Shown: piece by piece, positions 6,980 to 18,558 of the stretch | Position numbering within the stretch: position 1 is the stretch's first letter | Layout of the letters: each line of letters starts with the position of its first letter | DNA from: Bacteroidales bacterium | GTDB taxonomy: Bacteria > Bacteroidota > Bacteroidia > Bacteroidales > 4484-276 | Direction: 5' to 3' | Assembly (NCBI GenBank): GCA_012523265.1 | Contig: JAAYIU010000132.1 | Coordinates: 1-32,879, forward strand | Length of the DNA: 32,879 nucleotides | Made by a program: the position numbers and the translations under genes | Notes under the pieces: generated by a model | The model's database searches: none | What the model saw: the letters and a program-made list of their open reading frames with translations, nothing else | Told to the model about the DNA's origin: nothing

Positions 6980-7196
6980 TCGCTTTTTTAGGTAATTATT
7001 TAAACTATTAAAGTGGGTACTTTTTATGGTTTTACAACTTTAACCGACAACAAAGAAGCCGGAAACATCAACATTAAAAAAGAAACCTTCCAACTTTGCG
7101 GTTAACGCTTCCCATATCATTATGTTACATGATGCGGGTTTGCTACATTTTTATGGCTTTAAGCCAAAAAAAACTTTCCTGTCTCATTATCTTATG
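6980..7196. other. Intergenic stretch before ppiD
   Basis: No gene, RNA or strong terminator was seen here. It is A+T-rich, and the frame upstream of ppiD that starts at 7122 has no protein-like character and precedes the probable promoter. Confidence 0.5.
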
Positions 7197-7204
7197 TATT
7201 TTTG
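7197..7204 (+). promoter_or_regulatory. Candidate -7 element for ppiD
   Basis: TATTTTTG matches TAnnTTTG and ends 28 nt before the ATG at 7233. It rules against the longer frame starting at 7122. Confidence 0.45.
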
Positions 7205-7232
7205 CACCCACTTTAAAAAAAATTGCATAAAA

Positions 7233-9350
7233 ATGGCAGCAATAGGACAAATCAGAAAACATTCAGGATTACTTATCGTAATAATCGGGGTAGCTTTAGC
7301 AGCTTTTGTGCTCGGGGATTTCCTGAAGCCAAGAAACACAAATCCACGTCTTTACGTTGGCGAGGTAGCCGGTGAAGAGATTTCGAGCGAGGCTTTCAGC
7401 ATGCGCGTGGAAGAACGCACACAGGCCACCAAAAATCAACGGCAGAGCGAAAACCTCTCACAAGACGATCTCTTTCAGATAAGGCAGGCTGTATGGAACG
7501 AAATGGTGAACGAAATACTTCTTACCCGCCAATACGAAAAGCTGGGATTAGCAGTAACTTCCGATGAACTGACCGACCAGATCGTGGGTGAGGAGCCACA
7601 CCAATATGTAAAGCAATCCTTTACCGATCCCAACTCGGGCAACTTCGACCCGTCGGTAGTAGTCAACTTTCTTCAGAACCTCGACAGAGCCGACCCGGAG
7701 ATGCGCAAGCGCTATCTCAGCCTCGAGGCAATGATAAAAGACGCCCTCAGAAAAACCAAATACCAAAATCTGCTTACCAAAGCCTGGTTTATGCCCACGG
7801 CATTTGCCAAACTCGACTACGAGCGCATCAACAGCACCGCCAATATTGTGTACACAGCCACCATGCTCAGCACAATAGCTGATACAGCCGTGACGGTCAC
7901 CGACCAGGATTTGAAAAAATATTATGACGACAATAAAGCGCAATACAAGCAGGAAGCAAGTCGCACCATCGATTATGTGGTGTTTCCGGTGCAACCCTCG
8001 TCAGATGATCGCAAAGAAATCGCTGCGCAGGTCAACGAACTTTACGCCGAATTTATAAACATAAAAGACGATGCTACTTTCGTAAATTCTTCAAGCGACA
8101 CACGCATCGACACCACCTACAAAAAAGAATCGGAATTGCCGGCACGCGTAGCATCCCAGCTCATGGAAGCAGAAATCGGCACCGTGGTAGGCCCTTACAT
8201 CGAAAGCGACGTTTATTACATGTCCAAAGTACTCGATCGCGCCGAGCGTTCCGACTCGCTCAAAATTAGTCAGATCTTGATAAGCTATGCCACCGCTCCC
8301 GCCGCTGCCGGCATCAGCGAGCGCACCGCAAAACGTGCCCGCACACTCGTCGACAGCCTTAACAATGTACTGCAGAAAAACCCCGGCAAGTTTGAGGAAA
8401 TTGCCGTTCAATTTTCTGACTATCCTTCGGCAGCCGATGATAAAGGCGACCTGGGTTGGGTTATTGATGGCAACGCCGGCATGTCGAATTTTTATAACAA
8501 AGGCAAAAATATGAAGGTGAACGAAGTGGCCGAACTGGAAACCGCTCTCGGTTACCATCTGGTGAAGCTCACCGACAAAACCAATCCGCTGATGAAGGTA
8601 AAAATTGCTACGCTTACGCGCAATATCGTCCCCAGCGATCTTACTTACCAGCAGGCTTACATGAAAGCCAACACCTTTGCCGGCGAAAACAACACCCGCA
8701 CTAAATTCGATACCGCTGTTGTGAGCCAGGGACTGAACAAACGCACCGCCGAGCGCCTCAACGAAAGCTCCAACCGCATCGCAGGTGTTGAGAATGCCCG
8801 TCAACTGGTACGCTGGGCCTTTGAGGAAAAGAGGCCAATCGACGCCGTTTCCAACGTATTTGAAGACGACGACCAATTTATCGTGGCAACACTCACCAAT
8901 ATCCGCGAAAAAGGCTTCACACCACTGGAGGAGGTAAAAGAACAAATTCGGCCGCTGGTTGTCAACCAGAAAAAAGCTGACCTGATTGCCAAACGCATCA
9001 GCGATCTCAACGCACAAAGCATTGAGCAAATCGCCGAAAGCATGAATCAAAATGTGGACTCTGTTGCCGTAAGTTACGCTTCACGAAACCTCCCGGGTTT
9101 TGGCAGCGAATACGAACTGATCGGAACCATCTTTACGCTGGAACCCGGCAAAGTTTCTGAACCCATCAAAGGCAACAACGCAGTGTTTGTGGTAAAAGTG
9201 ACCGATGTAACGCAAGCTACTCCCACCGAAGATTACTCAGCTACCGCCGGCATGCTTGAGCGTCGGTTTACCTCACGCGTGCCCAACAGCTACATGAACG
9301 TGCTGAAAGAGGATGTGAAAATAAATGATAACCGCCTGATGATTTATTAG
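7233..9350 (+). CDS. ppiD: PpiD-like periplasmic peptidyl-prolyl isomerase/chaperone
   Basis: A 705-residue membrane-anchored foldase that assists outer-membrane and secreted proteins as they leave the Sec channel. The N-terminus is cytoplasmic (MAAIGQIRKHSG), with one TM helix (LLIVIIGVALAAFVLGDFL, about residues 13-31). A SurA-N-like helical chaperone region follows. A parvulin domain covers about residues 340-460, with DSLKISQILISY, FEEIAVQFSDYPSA, KGDLGWV and ALGYHLVKLTD. The C-terminal region contains a second, degenerate parvulin-like segment (about 595-690). The start at ATG 7233 is 37 codons inside the longest frame and follows the probable promoter. It is the last gene of the plus-strand envelope block and has its own terminator. 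Confidence 0.9.
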   Translation: MAAIGQIRKHSGLLIVIIGVALAAFVLGDFLKPRNTNPRLYVGEVAGEEISSEAFSMRVEERTQATKNQRQSENLSQDDLFQIRQAVWNEMVNEILLTRQYEKLGLAVTSDELTDQIVGEEPHQYVKQSFTDPNSGNFDPSVVVNFLQNLDRADPEMRKRYLSLEAMIKDALRKTKYQNLLTKAWFMPTAFAKLDYERINSTANIVYTATMLSTIADTAVTVTDQDLKKYYDDNKAQYKQEASRTIDYVVFPVQPSSDDRKEIAAQVNELYAEFINIKDDATFVNSSSDTRIDTTYKKESELPARVASQLMEAEIGTVVGPYIESDVYYMSKVLDRAERSDSLKISQILISYATAPAAAGISERTAKRARTLVDSLNNVLQKNPGKFEEIAVQFSDYPSAADDKGDLGWVIDGNAGMSNFYNKGKNMKVNEVAELETALGYHLVKLTDKTNPLMKVKIATLTRNIVPSDLTYQQAYMKANTFAGENNTRTKFDTAVVSQGLNKRTAERLNESSNRIAGVENARQLVRWAFEEKRPIDAVSNVFEDDDQFIVATLTNIREKGFTPLEEVKEQIRPLVVNQKKADLIAKRISDLNAQSIEQIAESMNQNVDSVAVSYASRNLPGFGSEYELIGTIFTLEPGKVSEPIKGNNAVFVVKVTDVTQATPTEDYSATAGMLERRFTSRVPNSYMNVLKEDVKINDNRLMIY

Positions 9351-11425: not shown

Positions 11426-12769
11426 TTAATTAAGCCGGGTAAAAATAAGTTCCAGTTTAAGTCGCTGCGGGTTCTCCGCATTTGGCGAAGGCTCGAAGCC
11501 ATTGAGCACCACTCGGTTTGGCAAGATGCTGCCGGAGCTGGCACCCAGATAAAAGCGCGTGGCCAGGGTATCCTGAGTAAGTATTTTCTGCAATTGCTGG
11601 GTTATTCTGAACGAAAACTGATCGGTGCTGCGGTTGTAGCTTCCGCCATAATATTCGGCACCTTCTGTCTGGTCTTCGAGCAGCCGATACGTACCATCTT
11701 TGGTTACGTTGTAAAGCAGGTATTCGGCTGGTTCCATAAATGGCGAAACAGCTACCGGGTTGGTAAATGTGAGCTTTGCCTCATTCAGTGCCAGGTTGCC
11801 GTCGCGTGTGAGATTGCGGATGTAGGGAAATTCAAATATCACGGCAGTGCCCCCCATGGCTTGCACAAATAGTTGTTGCTGCCCCAGTGCGGTGTCGCCG
11901 TTGAGCTGACCCTGCAACTCAGCAGCAGCAAACTGGTAGTTGTGGGTAAAGTTCATAAAGCGCGCGCTCACACTGGTTATCGGGAAGTGATAGCGCAGCG
12001 AATCTTCGTCAGCATTTCGATAATAAAGCGTCATGCGTGAAGTTGTAGCGCCGACATTAAAAAATAAAATGGCACCACCTTGTGTCACTGCCTGGGGTTG
12101 GATGTAGAATCCTTTAAAAAACTGAAGAAATTTCTCTAACGACGAAATATCATCAGGGGCAGCGTCTCTGAACTTCTGCACAAAGGTGTCGTCCATTTTT
12201 ATGCGGAGCTTAGCCTGACTTTTCACACCATCGGCAAAGATGCTGTCGGTGGGATGCGGAACAAAAGTCGTGGTTGCTATTTCTCCACTTTTGAGTGCTA
12301 TCTGTGAAGTGCTGTAATAAATGCTGTCGGTATAAATCGGCTGGTCAAGCTCATACAAATTCCAGGTTTGTGCAGTAGTGGTATCGCCGTAGGCGCGCAT
12401 GATTGTATTGCTACCCATGGCCACAGTGGTATAATCCATCGAAAACACCATCGAATCGAGTACCGGCGAAGGTCCCAACTCAACGGCGGTGCTCTCCAGA
12501 CGCAACTGCATTGCCACGGCAGAAGTGCTGGTACCAAACACCGGATCGTAGTAGCTGCCCAGCATGGTGCGAGAAGTCTTGTCGGTACGCACCGAATCAA
12601 CGCGAATGGTATGCGCCAGCACGGTGACGGTATCGGTATAAAAAATGTTGAGCTTGTCGGCTTCAGGTTGCAGGTCGACACCTATTTTGTCGGGATCATT
12701 TTCACAACCAGATATTAATATTGCAACCACCATGAGTATCGACACGGCCTGCAGGGGGAGTTTTAGCAT
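11426..12769 (-). CDS. DUF4270 lipoprotein
   Basis: A 447-residue predicted lipoprotein: signal with lipobox LISGC (Cys22), then CENDPDKIGVDLQPE. The FYTDTV, VRTDKTSRTMLGSYYDPVFGTS and AVAMQLRL segments are the hallmark of the DUF4270 family of Bacteroidota. The body is beta-rich. Family members usually sit between a short glycogen synthase and glmS, exactly as here (37 nt from the former, 24 nt to the latter), but their role has not been defined to my knowledge. A surface or periplasmic location is likely. TACCTTTT about 20 nt before the start resembles a -7 element, so an internal promoter is possible. Confidence 0.88.
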   Translation of the reverse strand: MLKLPLQAVSILMVVAILISGCENDPDKIGVDLQPEADKLNIFYTDTVTVLAHTIRVDSVRTDKTSRTMLGSYYDPVFGTSTSAVAMQLRLESTAVELGPSPVLDSMVFSMDYTTVAMGSNTIMRAYGDTTTAQTWNLYELDQPIYTDSIYYSTSQIALKSGEIATTTFVPHPTDSIFADGVKSQAKLRIKMDDTFVQKFRDAAPDDISSLEKFLQFFKGFYIQPQAVTQGGAILFFNVGATTSRMTLYYRNADEDSLRYHFPITSVSARFMNFTHNYQFAAAELQGQLNGDTALGQQQLFVQAMGGTAVIFEFPYIRNLTRDGNLALNEAKLTFTNPVAVSPFMEPAEYLLYNVTKDGTYRLLEDQTEGAEYYGGSYNRSTDQFSFRITQQLQKILTQDTLATRFYLGASSGSILPNRVVLNGFEPSPNAENPQRLKLELIFTRLN

Positions 12770-14739: not shown

Positions 14740-17700
14740 ATGGATCAACGTTTATCACATCATCATCGGTTTTATTTTTTTTGGATAAAGACAGTGTTAT
14801 CCGTCCTGTTGCTTTTGCCATTGGTGGGCCATGCTCAGTTTTATAATGGCTATCAGATGGAATTTGGCCGCAGCCGAGTGCAATTCGAGGATTTTCTGTG
14901 GACCTACTACAAGTTCGACCGTTTCGACACCTATTTTTATCTCAACGGCAAAGAGCTGGCCGAGCATACCGCGCGCTATGGCGGGCAGCAGCTCCGCCAT
15001 TACGAAGATGAACTCGACACCTATCTGGAAGGAAAAATCCAGTTTATAATTTTTAATAATCTCAACGAATTAAAACAAAGCAACATCGGCCTTACTACCG
15101 GAGCTGAATACAATCCCGGCGGCGTGTCGCATATTCTCGACAACAAAGTGGTGCTTTATTTCGACGGCAGCATGGTCGATTTTGAACTGCAGATACGCCA
15201 GGGTGTAGTGCATGTGCTTTTGCAAAATGCCATCTTTGGCAGCAACATCGGCAGCCAGGTGATGAATAGTTTTTTACAGAACTTCCCCGAATGGTACACC
15301 CGTGGCTTGATAGCTTATCTGGCCGAAGATTGGAACACCGACATCGACAACCGCATCCGCAACGTGGTAAGCTCGGGCAGGTACAAAAAGTTTAACCGTC
15401 TGGTAATGGACGAAACGCTGGTGCAGGACGCCGGCCACAGCTTTTGGCATTTTGTGGCACAGCGCTATGGGCATCAGCAAGTCCTGAGCATCATCAACAT
15501 GACGCGCATCAGCCGCAGCGTCGAAACAGGCTTTCAGTATGTGCTGGGCATTACACTGGAAACGGTGTACGACGAATGGCTGCAATATTATCGGCAGCAA
15601 AATGAGGCAGTGGCAGCCACCACCAGCCTGCCCGACAGCGACAACAGAATAAAAGGAAAACGGGTATTAAAACGTAACGACATCAGCCGCAACTATTCGC
15701 AGTTGCAGGTAAGCCCCGATGGGATCCTGACGGCGCTGGTTACCAACGAAAGCGGTAAATACAAGGTATGGCTGCATAACCTCGAAACCGGGAAGATCAG
15801 GAAACTTTATGTAGATGGTTTTAAACTCGACGAAAAGGTTGACCTGTCGTACCCGTTGCTCGCGTGGCATCCTTCGGGGGCAGTGCTGGCCATGGTGCTC
15901 GAAAAAAAAGGCCTGCTGTGGCTTTACCTGTATGATGTGGACGAACGCCAATGGACCAGTAGAAACATCTACGGCTTCGAGAAAATTACTCACCTCACCT
16001 ATTCGCCCGATGGCCGGTCGCTGCTTTTTTCGGCCGTTCAGAAAGGACAAAACGATTTGTTTCTTTTTACCATCTCCTCATCAACCTACGAGCGCCTGAC
16101 CTACGACATCTACGATGACCTCGATCCGGCTTTCATCCACGGCGATCGCATCATCTTCAGCTCCAACCGCCCCACCGACACCCTTCAATACGGCCAAAAT
16201 ACACTGCCCGAAGATTTCGACAGCCAGTACGACCTTTTTATTTTCGATTTCCCTACCCGCAACCCGGTATTGCGACGCGTCACCAGCACGCCGCTGGCCG
16301 ACGAACGCCAGGCCATGCCTTATGCCGACGGGTATTTTGCGTTTTTAAGCAACCAAAATGGCATCAACAACCAATACCTCGGGCGCCTCGACAGTGCTGT
16401 TGCTTTTGTGGACACTACCGTACACTACCGCTATTTTACCTCTTCGTTCCCTATTACCAATTACAACCACAACATCACGGGTCATCACATTGCACCGCGC
16501 GCCGGATACAAGAAGATGTTTACAAACGAAAAGCTATACAACCAACTTTATCTGGAGCCAATGGTTCTGCCTTCGATGCTGCAACCTGTCGAACTATCAT
16601 CAACTCCCTACATGCTGGGTTTGCGACAACAAAAACTAAGAGAACCTTATCGGATTGCCCCCATTCCACCGGCATCAGCCGACACTGCTGTCAGGCCGCC
16701 GCCACCGCGGACGCCCGTGCAGCGCAAAAGCTTCAGAAATGTGCTGCGCAACGATACTTACTCACGCGATTCGGCAGAAGTAGCGAAACCTGCTGACGAA
16801 AAAATCAACATCGAAAATTACCAGCTTAGCCAGCAAGGAATCATAAGCCTCAGCCCCGACACAAAGACTTCGGGCCACGGCGGGCAGGTTGCGGCAAAGG
16901 GGAAACCCAAAGATGACTTTACACTTCCCAAACAACTGAATTATTACACCCAATACAGCATCAACCAGTTGGTGACGCAAATAGATTTTTCGTACCTCAG
17001 CCAGATGTACCAGCCCTATCCCGGCGCCACCAATAATGCGCTGGACGATGTGTTGCCAGGTCTGAGCATCATACCCGATTATCAAAACCCCGGGCTTAGC
17101 CCTACGTTTATGGTTGGCGTTACCGATCTGATGGAAAACTATCGGATTCTGGGCGGAGTGCGTATCGGCCTCGACCTGGTGGACAAAGAGTATTTTTTCA
17201 GTTTTGCTAATCTTAAAAAACGCCTCGACAAGGAGTTTGTCTTCCAGCGTCGCTCGCTCGAACAAGCGGTAATAGCAGCCTACGTGACAAGGCAAAAAAT
17301 CAACGAAGGCTTCCTGATCCTCACCTACCCGCTCAACAAAGTGCTCCGGGTTAGGGGCACCTTTTTGTTTCGCAACGAAAACCTGCTCTTCAGCGGCCCC
17401 GACGAGCTGGCTATTCGCTATCCCAACCAAACCAGAAACTGGGGCGGCGCCAAACTGCAACTTATCTACGACGACACCAAAGAGCTGGGCCTTAATTTGC
17501 CGGAAGGCACAAGATTTATGGTTTTTGGCGAATACAATCAGCAAATCGAACAGATCAACAAAAGTCTCCTCGTCGTGGGCTTCGACTTTCGCAACTACCT
17601 GCGCATCCATCGTCAGATGATTTGGGCCAACCGCCTGGCAGCAAGCAGCAACTTCGGCACCGAACGCCTGCTCTATTACATGGGCGGCACCGACAGTTGG

Positions 17701-18171
17701 ATGCTGCCACGCTTTGCCGACGACACCCGCACCGATCCCGACCAAAACTGGGTGTATCAGGCGCTGGCCACCAACATGCGCGGCTTTAAGCAAAATGCCC
17801 GCAACGGCAACACCTTCGTGGTGCTTAACAGTGAATTGCGGCTGCCGCTGTTTCGCTATCTGCTCAACAAGCCGATAAAGTCGGAGTTTATAAAAAACTT
17901 CCAGTTGGTAGGATTTGGCGACATTGGCACGGCCTGGAACGGCTGGAATCCTTACGATGCCGACAACGTCCTCTACACACGTTACGTCAATTCGGGGCCG
18001 TTGCGCATCAAAGTGCAATACGAAAAAGACCCGCTCATTGCCGGCATCGGCTTTGGCGCGCGCACCAAGCTGCTGGGCTATTTCCTCAAAGGCGACCTGG
18101 CCTGGGGCATCGAAGATGGTAAGATAAAACGTGATCCGATTTTTTACCTCTCCATGAGCCTTGATTTTTAA
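14740..18171 (+). CDS. Gluzincin-like / TolB-like propeller / outer-membrane barrel fusion protein
   Basis: A 1143-residue exported protein with a signal peptide (hydrophobic VLSVLLLLPLVGHA, cleavage near residue 32). Residues about 35-290 resemble the peptidase-MA (gluzincin) fold. The HExxH helix reads RQGVVH (153-158) and the downstream EGLAxY-type motif reads WYTRGLIAY (185-193), so two metal ligands and the general base are missing. Residues about 310-560 form a TolB/PD40-type beta-propeller (VSPDGILTALV, YSPDGRSLLFSA, IIFSSNRPTDT). After a low-complexity proline-rich linker, residues about 795-1143 are barrel-like with a terminal aromatic residue (LSMSLDF), similar to Omp85/surface-antigen barrels. 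Predicted location is the outer membrane, with the other domains probably periplasmic. Function unknown. The start at ATG 14740 gives a clean signal peptide. Confidence 0.82.
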   Translation: MDQRLSHHHRFYFFWIKTVLSVLLLLPLVGHAQFYNGYQMEFGRSRVQFEDFLWTYYKFDRFDTYFYLNGKELAEHTARYGGQQLRHYEDELDTYLEGKIQFIIFNNLNELKQSNIGLTTGAEYNPGGVSHILDNKVVLYFDGSMVDFELQIRQGVVHVLLQNAIFGSNIGSQVMNSFLQNFPEWYTRGLIAYLAEDWNTDIDNRIRNVVSSGRYKKFNRLVMDETLVQDAGHSFWHFVAQRYGHQQVLSIINMTRISRSVETGFQYVLGITLETVYDEWLQYYRQQNEAVAATTSLPDSDNRIKGKRVLKRNDISRNYSQLQVSPDGILTALVTNESGKYKVWLHNLETGKIRKLYVDGFKLDEKVDLSYPLLAWHPSGAVLAMVLEKKGLLWLYLYDVDERQWTSRNIYGFEKITHLTYSPDGRSLLFSAVQKGQNDLFLFTISSSTYERLTYDIYDDLDPAFIHGDRIIFSSNRPTDTLQYGQNTLPEDFDSQYDLFIFDFPTRNPVLRRVTSTPLADERQAMPYADGYFAFLSNQNGINNQYLGRLDSAVAFVDTTVHYRYFTSSFPITNYNHNITGHHIAPRAGYKKMFTNEKLYNQLYLEPMVLPSMLQPVELSSTPYMLGLRQQKLREPYRIAPIPPASADTAVRPPPPRTPVQRKSFRNVLRNDTYSRDSAEVAKPADEKINIENYQLSQQGIISLSPDTKTSGHGGQVAAKGKPKDDFTLPKQLNYYTQYSINQLVTQIDFSYLSQMYQPYPGATNNALDDVLPGLSIIPDYQNPGLSPTFMVGVTDLMENYRILGGVRIGLDLVDKEYFFSFANLKKRLDKEFVFQRRSLEQAVIAAYVTRQKINEGFLILTYPLNKVLRVRGTFLFRNENLLFSGPDELAIRYPNQTRNWGGAKLQLIYDDTKELGLNLPEGTRFMVFGEYNQQIEQINKSLLVVGFDFRNYLRIHRQMIWANRLAASSNFGTERLLYYMGGTDSWMLPRFADDTRTDPDQNWVYQALATNMRGFKQNARNGNTFVVLNSELRLPLFRYLLNKPIKSEFIKNFQLVGFGDIGTAWNGWNPYDADNVLYTRYVNSGPLRIKVQYEKDPLIAGIGFGARTKLLGYFLKGDLAWGIEDGKIKRDPIFYLSMSLDF

Positions 18172-18189: not shown

Positions 18190-18558
18190 ATGAATATGTC
18201 GACGATCTTAATTTTGATAACCATCGGGCTGGCTGCCGGCATCCTGAGCGGATTTATCGGTCTGGGCGGCGCCATTGTGATAATTCCGGCGCTGGTGCTT
18301 TTCCTGGGCATGTCGCAATACATGGCACAGGGCACCAGCCTGGCGGTAATGCTGCCGCCCATTGGCCTGCTGGCGGCATGGAATTACTGGAAAGCCGGTG
18401 AGCTAAATCTGAAGTACGCCATGATCATAGCAACAGCGTTTATCATCGGTGGATACATCGGATCGAAATACGCACTCATGGTCTCTGAAAATATGCTGCG
18501 AAAGATTTTTGCCGCCGCTTTGTTTTTGGTGGCGGTGAATATGTTTTTTAAAAAGTAA
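18190..18558 (+). CDS. Half-size TauE/SafE family membrane protein
   Basis: A 122-residue, four-TM protein equal to one half of a TauE/SafE anion (sulfite/organosulfonate) exporter. The glycine-rich family signature AGILSGFIGLGGAIVIIPALVLFLG and the following AQGTSLAVMLPPI motif are intact, as is the AWNYWKAGELN loop. Full-length members are about 250 residues with an internal repeat, so this form would have to work as a dimer. It starts 18 nt after the propeller-barrel gene and is very likely co-transcribed with it. A functional link is not evident. Confidence 0.85.
   Translation: MNMSTILILITIGLAAGILSGFIGLGGAIVIIPALVLFLGMSQYMAQGTSLAVMLPPIGLLAAWNYWKAGELNLKYAMIIATAFIIGGYIGSKYALMVSENMLRKIFAAALFLVAVNMFFKK

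Follow-up and report, generated by a model that had tools for sequence, protein, structure and literature searches.

The gene and its product

The window analysed here is the whole stretch of 32,879 nucleotides covering positions 1 to 32,879 of the forward strand of contig JAAYIU010000132.1 (assembly GCA_012523265.1) from a Bacteroidales bacterium. The gene under study is a single open reading frame with a stop-free translation (Table 1). It is present in one copy in its own genome and has orthologues in relatives which, where they carry names, are Bacteroidales or Bacteroidetes MAGs. We read its product as a member of the Omp85 superfamily, with no recognised POTRA domain, that resides in the outer membrane of Bacteroidota.

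Table 1 Features of the gene and its product, with positions in the window.
Feature	Residues	Position	Strand	Remarks and basis
Pseudo-gluzincin / TolB-like propeller / Omp85-barrel gene	1143 aa	14740..18171	+	Orthologues found
Sec signal peptide	1-32	14740..14835	+	Cleavage before QFYNG, without lipobox; from the sequence
N-terminal gluzincin-fold domain, predicted catalytically dead	33-290	14836..15609	+	Fold matches; Peptidase_MA_2 in orthologues
RQGVVH	153-158	15196..15213	+	xHExxH in relatives (alignment)
WYTRGLIAY	185-193	15292..15318	+	WxxEGxAEY in relatives (alignment)
TolB-like beta-propeller	about 295-615	15622..16584	+	PD40, TolB, PDB profile and fold matches
Low-confidence linker	about 616-782	16585..17085	+	pLDDT mostly under 50
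BamA-type Omp85 outer-membrane barrel	about 783-1143	17086..18168	+	Profile and fold matches
RGF, equivalent of the Omp85 L6 VRGF/Y motif	1014-1016	17779..17787	+	Invariant in orthologues
C-terminal IFYLSMSLDF, beta-signal-like, terminal Phe		18139..18168	+	Sequence; kept in orthologues

Residues Q33, F34, Y35, N36, and G37 at the predicted start of the mature protein are invariant in 19 orthologues. When the window protein was compared with Pfam and NCBIfam, only the propeller and a faint Omp85 match were seen. The propeller was recognized by PD40 (2.3e-6), by TolB (2.2e-12; 46.7 bits against a cut-off of 343, the match being confined to the propeller) and by a profile made from TolB in the PDB (1.6e-11). 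The Omp85 match covers residues 1012-1077 at 1e-4 and lies below the cut-off, the NF047779 score being 22 against 200 bits, and PF01103 gave no match on the contig of the window protein, whereas orthologues with an intact HExxH motif exceed the PF01103 cut-off (39-52 bits versus 24). The Omp85 membership of the window protein is based on fold and homology, not on a score cut-off. Among the orthologues Peptidase_MA_2 was matched with E values down to 5e-5. No POTRA domain was matched in Pfam, and the only stretch of the chain free to hold one is the linker, which is variable, yet contains a conserved VTQIDFSYLNQxYQPF stretch from residue 745 on.

Fold of the three domains

A full-length AlphaFold2 model was built on 19 orthologues and is of moderate confidence (pLDDT 67.9, pTM 0.51). 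Since the barrel and the propeller dominate the fold search with the whole model, the N-terminal domain was folded and searched separately (pLDDT 76.5, pTM 0.78). All of its best PDB matches are gluzincins, namely M9 collagenases, M1 aminopeptidases, and the M30 peptidase lugdulysin, with the M9 collagenase 7wss at the top (Z 16.3 over 228 residues, 3.7 A). TAF2 (7edx_B) was also among the fold matches; in this pseudo-M1 aminopeptidase of TFIID a gluzincin-fold domain serves as a non-catalytic scaffold, although TAF2 is a eukaryotic nuclear protein with neither a barrel nor a propeller fused to it.

The propeller region of the full-length model matched TolB with a Z score of about 21. The top matches of the barrel are BamA proteins (Z 21-23 over 282-316 residues), including 8xnb (Z 22.9, 316 residues, 4.3 A), F. 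johnsoniae BamA 9n2e (Z 22.6, 285 residues, 3.4 A), and P. gingivalis BamA 9hjm (Z 21.6). The modelled barrel has about 16-18 strands, a BamA-type barrel having 16. The RGF triplet, which corresponds to the described L6 VRGF/Y motif of Omp85 proteins (PMC12611786), is invariant across 19 orthologues, and the chain terminates in SLDF with an aromatic end. POTRA domains were absent from the matches of both fold searches (whole model and N-terminal domain alone), which is not proof of their absence.

Collectively, these matches bear out a preliminary description of the locus, in which a dead gluzincin, a TolB-like propeller, and a C-terminal barrel had been proposed to share one chain. The BamA/Omp85 character of the barrel had been missed there, and it supplies a concrete reason for the suggestion, also made there, of an assembly or export device.

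Loss of the zinc site and selective constraint

The segments RQGVVH and WYTRGLIAY had been taken from the sequence to stand where a gluzincin carries HExxH and the downstream Glu motif, and the alignment of 97 sequences agrees with this placement. HExxH is absent from the entire window protein and was found in 0/64 members of its clade, while H/E/H/E/E fills the catalytic columns of 24/24 orthologues belonging to other classes within the phylum, as it does in 9/9 paralogues. In the later two Glu columns single glutamates are left in 8/64 and 4/64 clade members, respectively. The would-be zinc ligand H158 is present in the window protein, and its column varies within the clade (E, R, H, K, Q). 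Since W185 and G189 are invariant in 97/97 sequences, the contrast between the clade and its relatives at the same columns argues that the loss reflects neither chance nor misalignment. Having neither HExxH nor the downstream Glu ligand, the window protein is, judged by its sequence, a pseudo-peptidase and not a peptidase.

Homologues with an intact HExxH had been named in the preliminary description as evidence that would speak against a dead domain. None occurs inside the clade; those outside it do exist, and they show that the N-terminal domain descends from a real gluzincin. In a tree with 98 members, a single branch (SH-aLRT 100) separates the 65 dead sequences from all others. The dead ones are divergent, span many families, and, among the genomes sampled, come from the class of the window only, and the HExxH orthologues belong to genomes of other classes. 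The simplest reading of these sequences is that the zinc site was lost once and that the fold was retained.

Some genomes of the same order also carry a paralogue family (A2) with the same three-part architecture and an intact site, which aligns with the family of the window protein over 924 profile columns (E 4e-47). A pairing of pseudoenzyme and active paralogue in one cell was considered and rejected, since no HExxH paralogue is found in the window's genome (93% complete); two other genomes (G054 and G055) have both proteins. Tricorn-type propeller proteins that turned up in the search (L049-L052) were set aside, as they contain neither a barrel nor a gluzincin domain.

When computed against the nearest relative (L004), dN/dS is 0.080 overall, with 0.063 for the dead domain, 0.090 for the propeller, 0.180 for the linker, and 0.040 for the barrel, so that the dead domain lies below the propeller. 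Mean identity is 29% in the linker and 56% in the barrel, the most conserved part. By the measure of dN/dS the dead domain is kept and not decaying. As purifying selection acts on a single polypeptide that holds the dead fold, the propeller, and the barrel, the N-terminal domain is most naturally seen as a binding module.

Distribution and gene neighbourhood

Of 296 genomes sampled from the phylum, 192 have a family match (E <= 1e-20), the A2 paralogues being counted in. Outside the class of the window, tamB, a gene of outer-membrane assembly, lies within 0.9-3.4 kb of the HExxH orthologue in 67/88 genomes belonging to 11 families, where the 88 are those genomes of other classes for which coordinates were listed for the best TamB as well as for the family gene. 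The neighbour is identified as TamB by PF04357 (7e-36; three of five members) and by NF047952 (2e-15 in G059), and in the loci that were read RNase R sits between it and the HExxH orthologue. This linkage may be inherited gene order, RNase R lying between the two genes. In the window's class, about 37 loci of the dead clade, spanning up to 19 kb, showed no TamB in the vicinity of the gene. Furthermore, the genomes of one family (f65) keep tamB and have no member of the present family at E 1e-20; whole families with tamB and without the protein argue that it is not a fixed TAM subunit.

In F. johnsoniae a stand-alone tamB, which is not in an operon with tamL, is essential (PMC12045153). One genome (G123) contains a separate Omp85-TamB operon (C1:1239468-1244581), which fits TamL2-TamB2 of that study. 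The tamB adjoining the family gene would then be the stand-alone tamB, an assignment based on operon structure and not on comparison with the F. johnsoniae sequences.

In the dead-clade loci a divergent MBL-fold hydrolase gene recurs (20 loci) and an M20 peptidase gene lies downstream in 13, neither of which yields a functional lead, and no dedicated partner gene adjoining the family gene is conserved among the loci compared. Two genes from the gene under study, between starch-synthase-type and glmS-type genes, the window encodes a DUF4270 protein (11426-12769, minus strand) whose N-terminal part matches BamH (9n2d_C, E 1.1e-9), an essential subunit of the Bacteroidota BAM complex. This proximity is conserved in the nearest relatives only and was not used as an argument. 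The window further contains a gene for a SurA/PpiD-like periplasmic peptidyl-prolyl isomerase with rotamase domains (7122-9350, plus strand) and a half-length TauE/SafE transporter gene (18190-18558, plus strand; profile positions 1-111 of 237), and half-size genes similar to the latter occur near the family gene in eight loci.

Elsewhere in the family, loci L144-L150 (families f57 and f58) carry a C25 (PorU-type) peptidase gene at a distance of a few genes, and in two loci an OstA/LptD_N-type gene is found directly upstream with overlapping reading frames (L061:3-1727 and L072:2-778). The genome of locus L077 (G000:C68:19149-19625) has a 1224-aa protein with an Omp85 match, and further genomes encode proteins of comparable length (1230-1266 aa).

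Relation to known proteins

No function assigned to this architecture was known to the preliminary description. WD40-like Omp85 proteins were still listed among the poorly characterised ones in 2024 (PMC11116518). The architecture itself, however, is partly known, since propeller-Omp85 fusions were catalogued in 2014 as the "WD40-Omp85" subfamily (Heinz and Lithgow, PMC4104836), likewise with a TolB-like propeller N-terminal to the barrel; they lack POTRA domains, none of which is recognised in the window protein, and a BamA-BamB-like role as a BAM platform was suggested for them. In the main text of that study, neither a peptidase-like domain preceding the propeller nor the inactivation of one is mentioned, nor is a linkage to tamB. 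In the openly accessible main texts searched, we found no description of the gluzincin domain, its inactivation throughout a class, or the tamB linkage.

With BamA from F. johnsoniae, P. gingivalis, and E. coli the window protein has in common the barrel fold, the L6 RGF/Y motif, and the aromatic C-terminus, but the identity is only about 13-16%, and a propeller and a gluzincin domain are present with no POTRA recognised. Besides BamA, five BAM subunits have been reported (BamD, BamG, BamH, BamM, and BamP only in F. johnsoniae), none of them described with the present architecture (PMC12611786); BamP was rejected as the identity of the window protein, being periplasmic and made up of two small domains with a linker. 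TamA and TamL also possess an Omp85 barrel, and the HExxH orthologues are genetically linked to tamB, but TamA/TamL have three POTRA domains and TamL a lipobox, whereas the window protein has no POTRA match in Pfam, its linker being of low confidence, and no lipobox cysteine in its signal peptide. In further contrast to TAM, the window's clade is unlinked to tamB and the protein is missing from some tamB-bearing families. The propeller resembles TolB in sequence and fold, with a barrel and a gluzincin domain replacing the N-terminal domain of TolB and a bit score far below the TolB cut-off. PlpD, a patatin-Omp85 protein, likewise joins an enzyme-fold domain to an Omp85 barrel and keeps this domain in the periplasm, with patatin and POTRA in the places of gluzincin and propeller. 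Finally, the M48 peptidase BepA (YfgC) of E. coli is a gluzincin that acts where outer-membrane proteins are assembled and whose chaperone-like role can be separated from its protease role; BepA is a soluble TPR protein from another gluzincin family with its active site kept, and the likeness is one of functional analogy only.

Discussion

The reading that we favour, and hold tentatively, is that of an Omp85 protein without recognised POTRA domains that serves in outer-membrane biogenesis; its periplasmic portion would formerly have been a protease as well and would now only bind clients or partners. The barrel would sit in the outer membrane with the propeller and the gluzincin-fold domain in the periplasm, a topology suggested by the signal peptide, the barrel type, and the Omp85 precedent. 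Omp85 barrels with a conserved L6 motif are most often assembly or translocation elements (PMC4104836, PMC11116518), and BepA, working at the BAM complex, can either promote or degrade a barrel protein during its assembly (PMC8423444). A barrel with the L6 motif combined with a gluzincin recalling BepA thus suggests a client-binding, formerly client-cutting part on an assembly barrel, possibly on the TamB route. The ancestor may have assisted in the assembly or quality control of outer-membrane proteins (or lipids) delivered along a TamB-type route; late or misfolded clients would have been bound at the barrel mouth and failures cut, much as by BepA at BAM. In the window's class the cutting step would have been lost once and the domain retained for binding or docking. 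The domain content, the folds, the single loss, purifying selection, and the tamB linkage of orthologues are results of the analysis; we infer the clients, the contact with TamB, and the persistence of binding. Counted against this reading are the lack of a neighbouring tamB in the loci of the dead clade, the chance that the linkage elsewhere is inherited gene order, the tamB-bearing families without the protein, the fact that TamL is already the outer-membrane partner of TamB (PMC12045153), scores of the window protein below the PF01103 and NCBIfam Omp85 cut-offs, and the moderate confidence of the full-length model.

Alternatively, the protein could form the outer-membrane terminus of a TamB-type bridge that delivers lipids (phospholipid or LPS), where the dead domain and the propeller merely hold the bridge. 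This we consider unlikely. The linkage of the HExxH orthologues to tamB, the OstA/LptD_N-type gene upstream in L061 and L072, and a reported promotion of lipid trafficking by TamB in E. coli (PMC11116518) would fit, but the OstA adjacency is rare, the HExxH kept in most orthologues points to protein clients, and a role of TamL as lipid transporter has been argued against (PMC12045153).

It is improbable that the protein serves as an envelope tether or scaffold in the manner of TolB/Pal, with the propeller and dead domain binding OmpA/Pal-type or peptidoglycan-bound proteins and the barrel a mere anchor. The closeness of the propeller to TolB and the conservation of the dead domain agree with such a role, whereas the strongest conservation falls on the barrel (56% mean identity, dN/dS 0.04), which also keeps the L6 motif, unlike a passive anchor. 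Export, by which the barrel would secrete or display either a partner protein or, in a type Vd-like manner, the N-terminal domains of the same chain, has a precedent in translocators such as FhaC among the Omp85 barrels (PMC4104836), and the C25 gene near the family gene in families f57 and f58 would fit; however, the patatin domain of PlpD, the model for this idea, stays in the periplasm (PMC11116518) and the loci compared show no conserved dedicated partner gene beside the family gene, which makes export quite improbable. A decaying remnant of an outer-membrane protease, to which the loss of HExxH in 64/64 clade members could point, was already disfavoured and is highly improbable given a dN/dS of 0.08 overall and 0.063 in the dead domain and the retention in 65 divergent members across many families.

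If the favoured reading of a biogenesis factor is extended to the phylum, most Bacteroidota would possess, on the TamB route, a single polypeptide uniting an outer-membrane insertase-type barrel with a metallopeptidase for an "assemble or destroy" function, and a single loss of the zinc site would have made it a pure chaperone in one class; we regard this extension as doubtful.

Bacteroidota are major gut and environmental bacteria, and their outer-membrane biogenesis differs greatly from that of E. coli (PMC12611786). To this picture the present analysis adds a widespread, uncharacterised Omp85 protein that is usually found beside what would be the stand-alone tamB outside the window's class. 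The apparent switch from enzyme to pseudoenzyme at the level of one class offers a natural experiment for setting a binding role against a cutting role.
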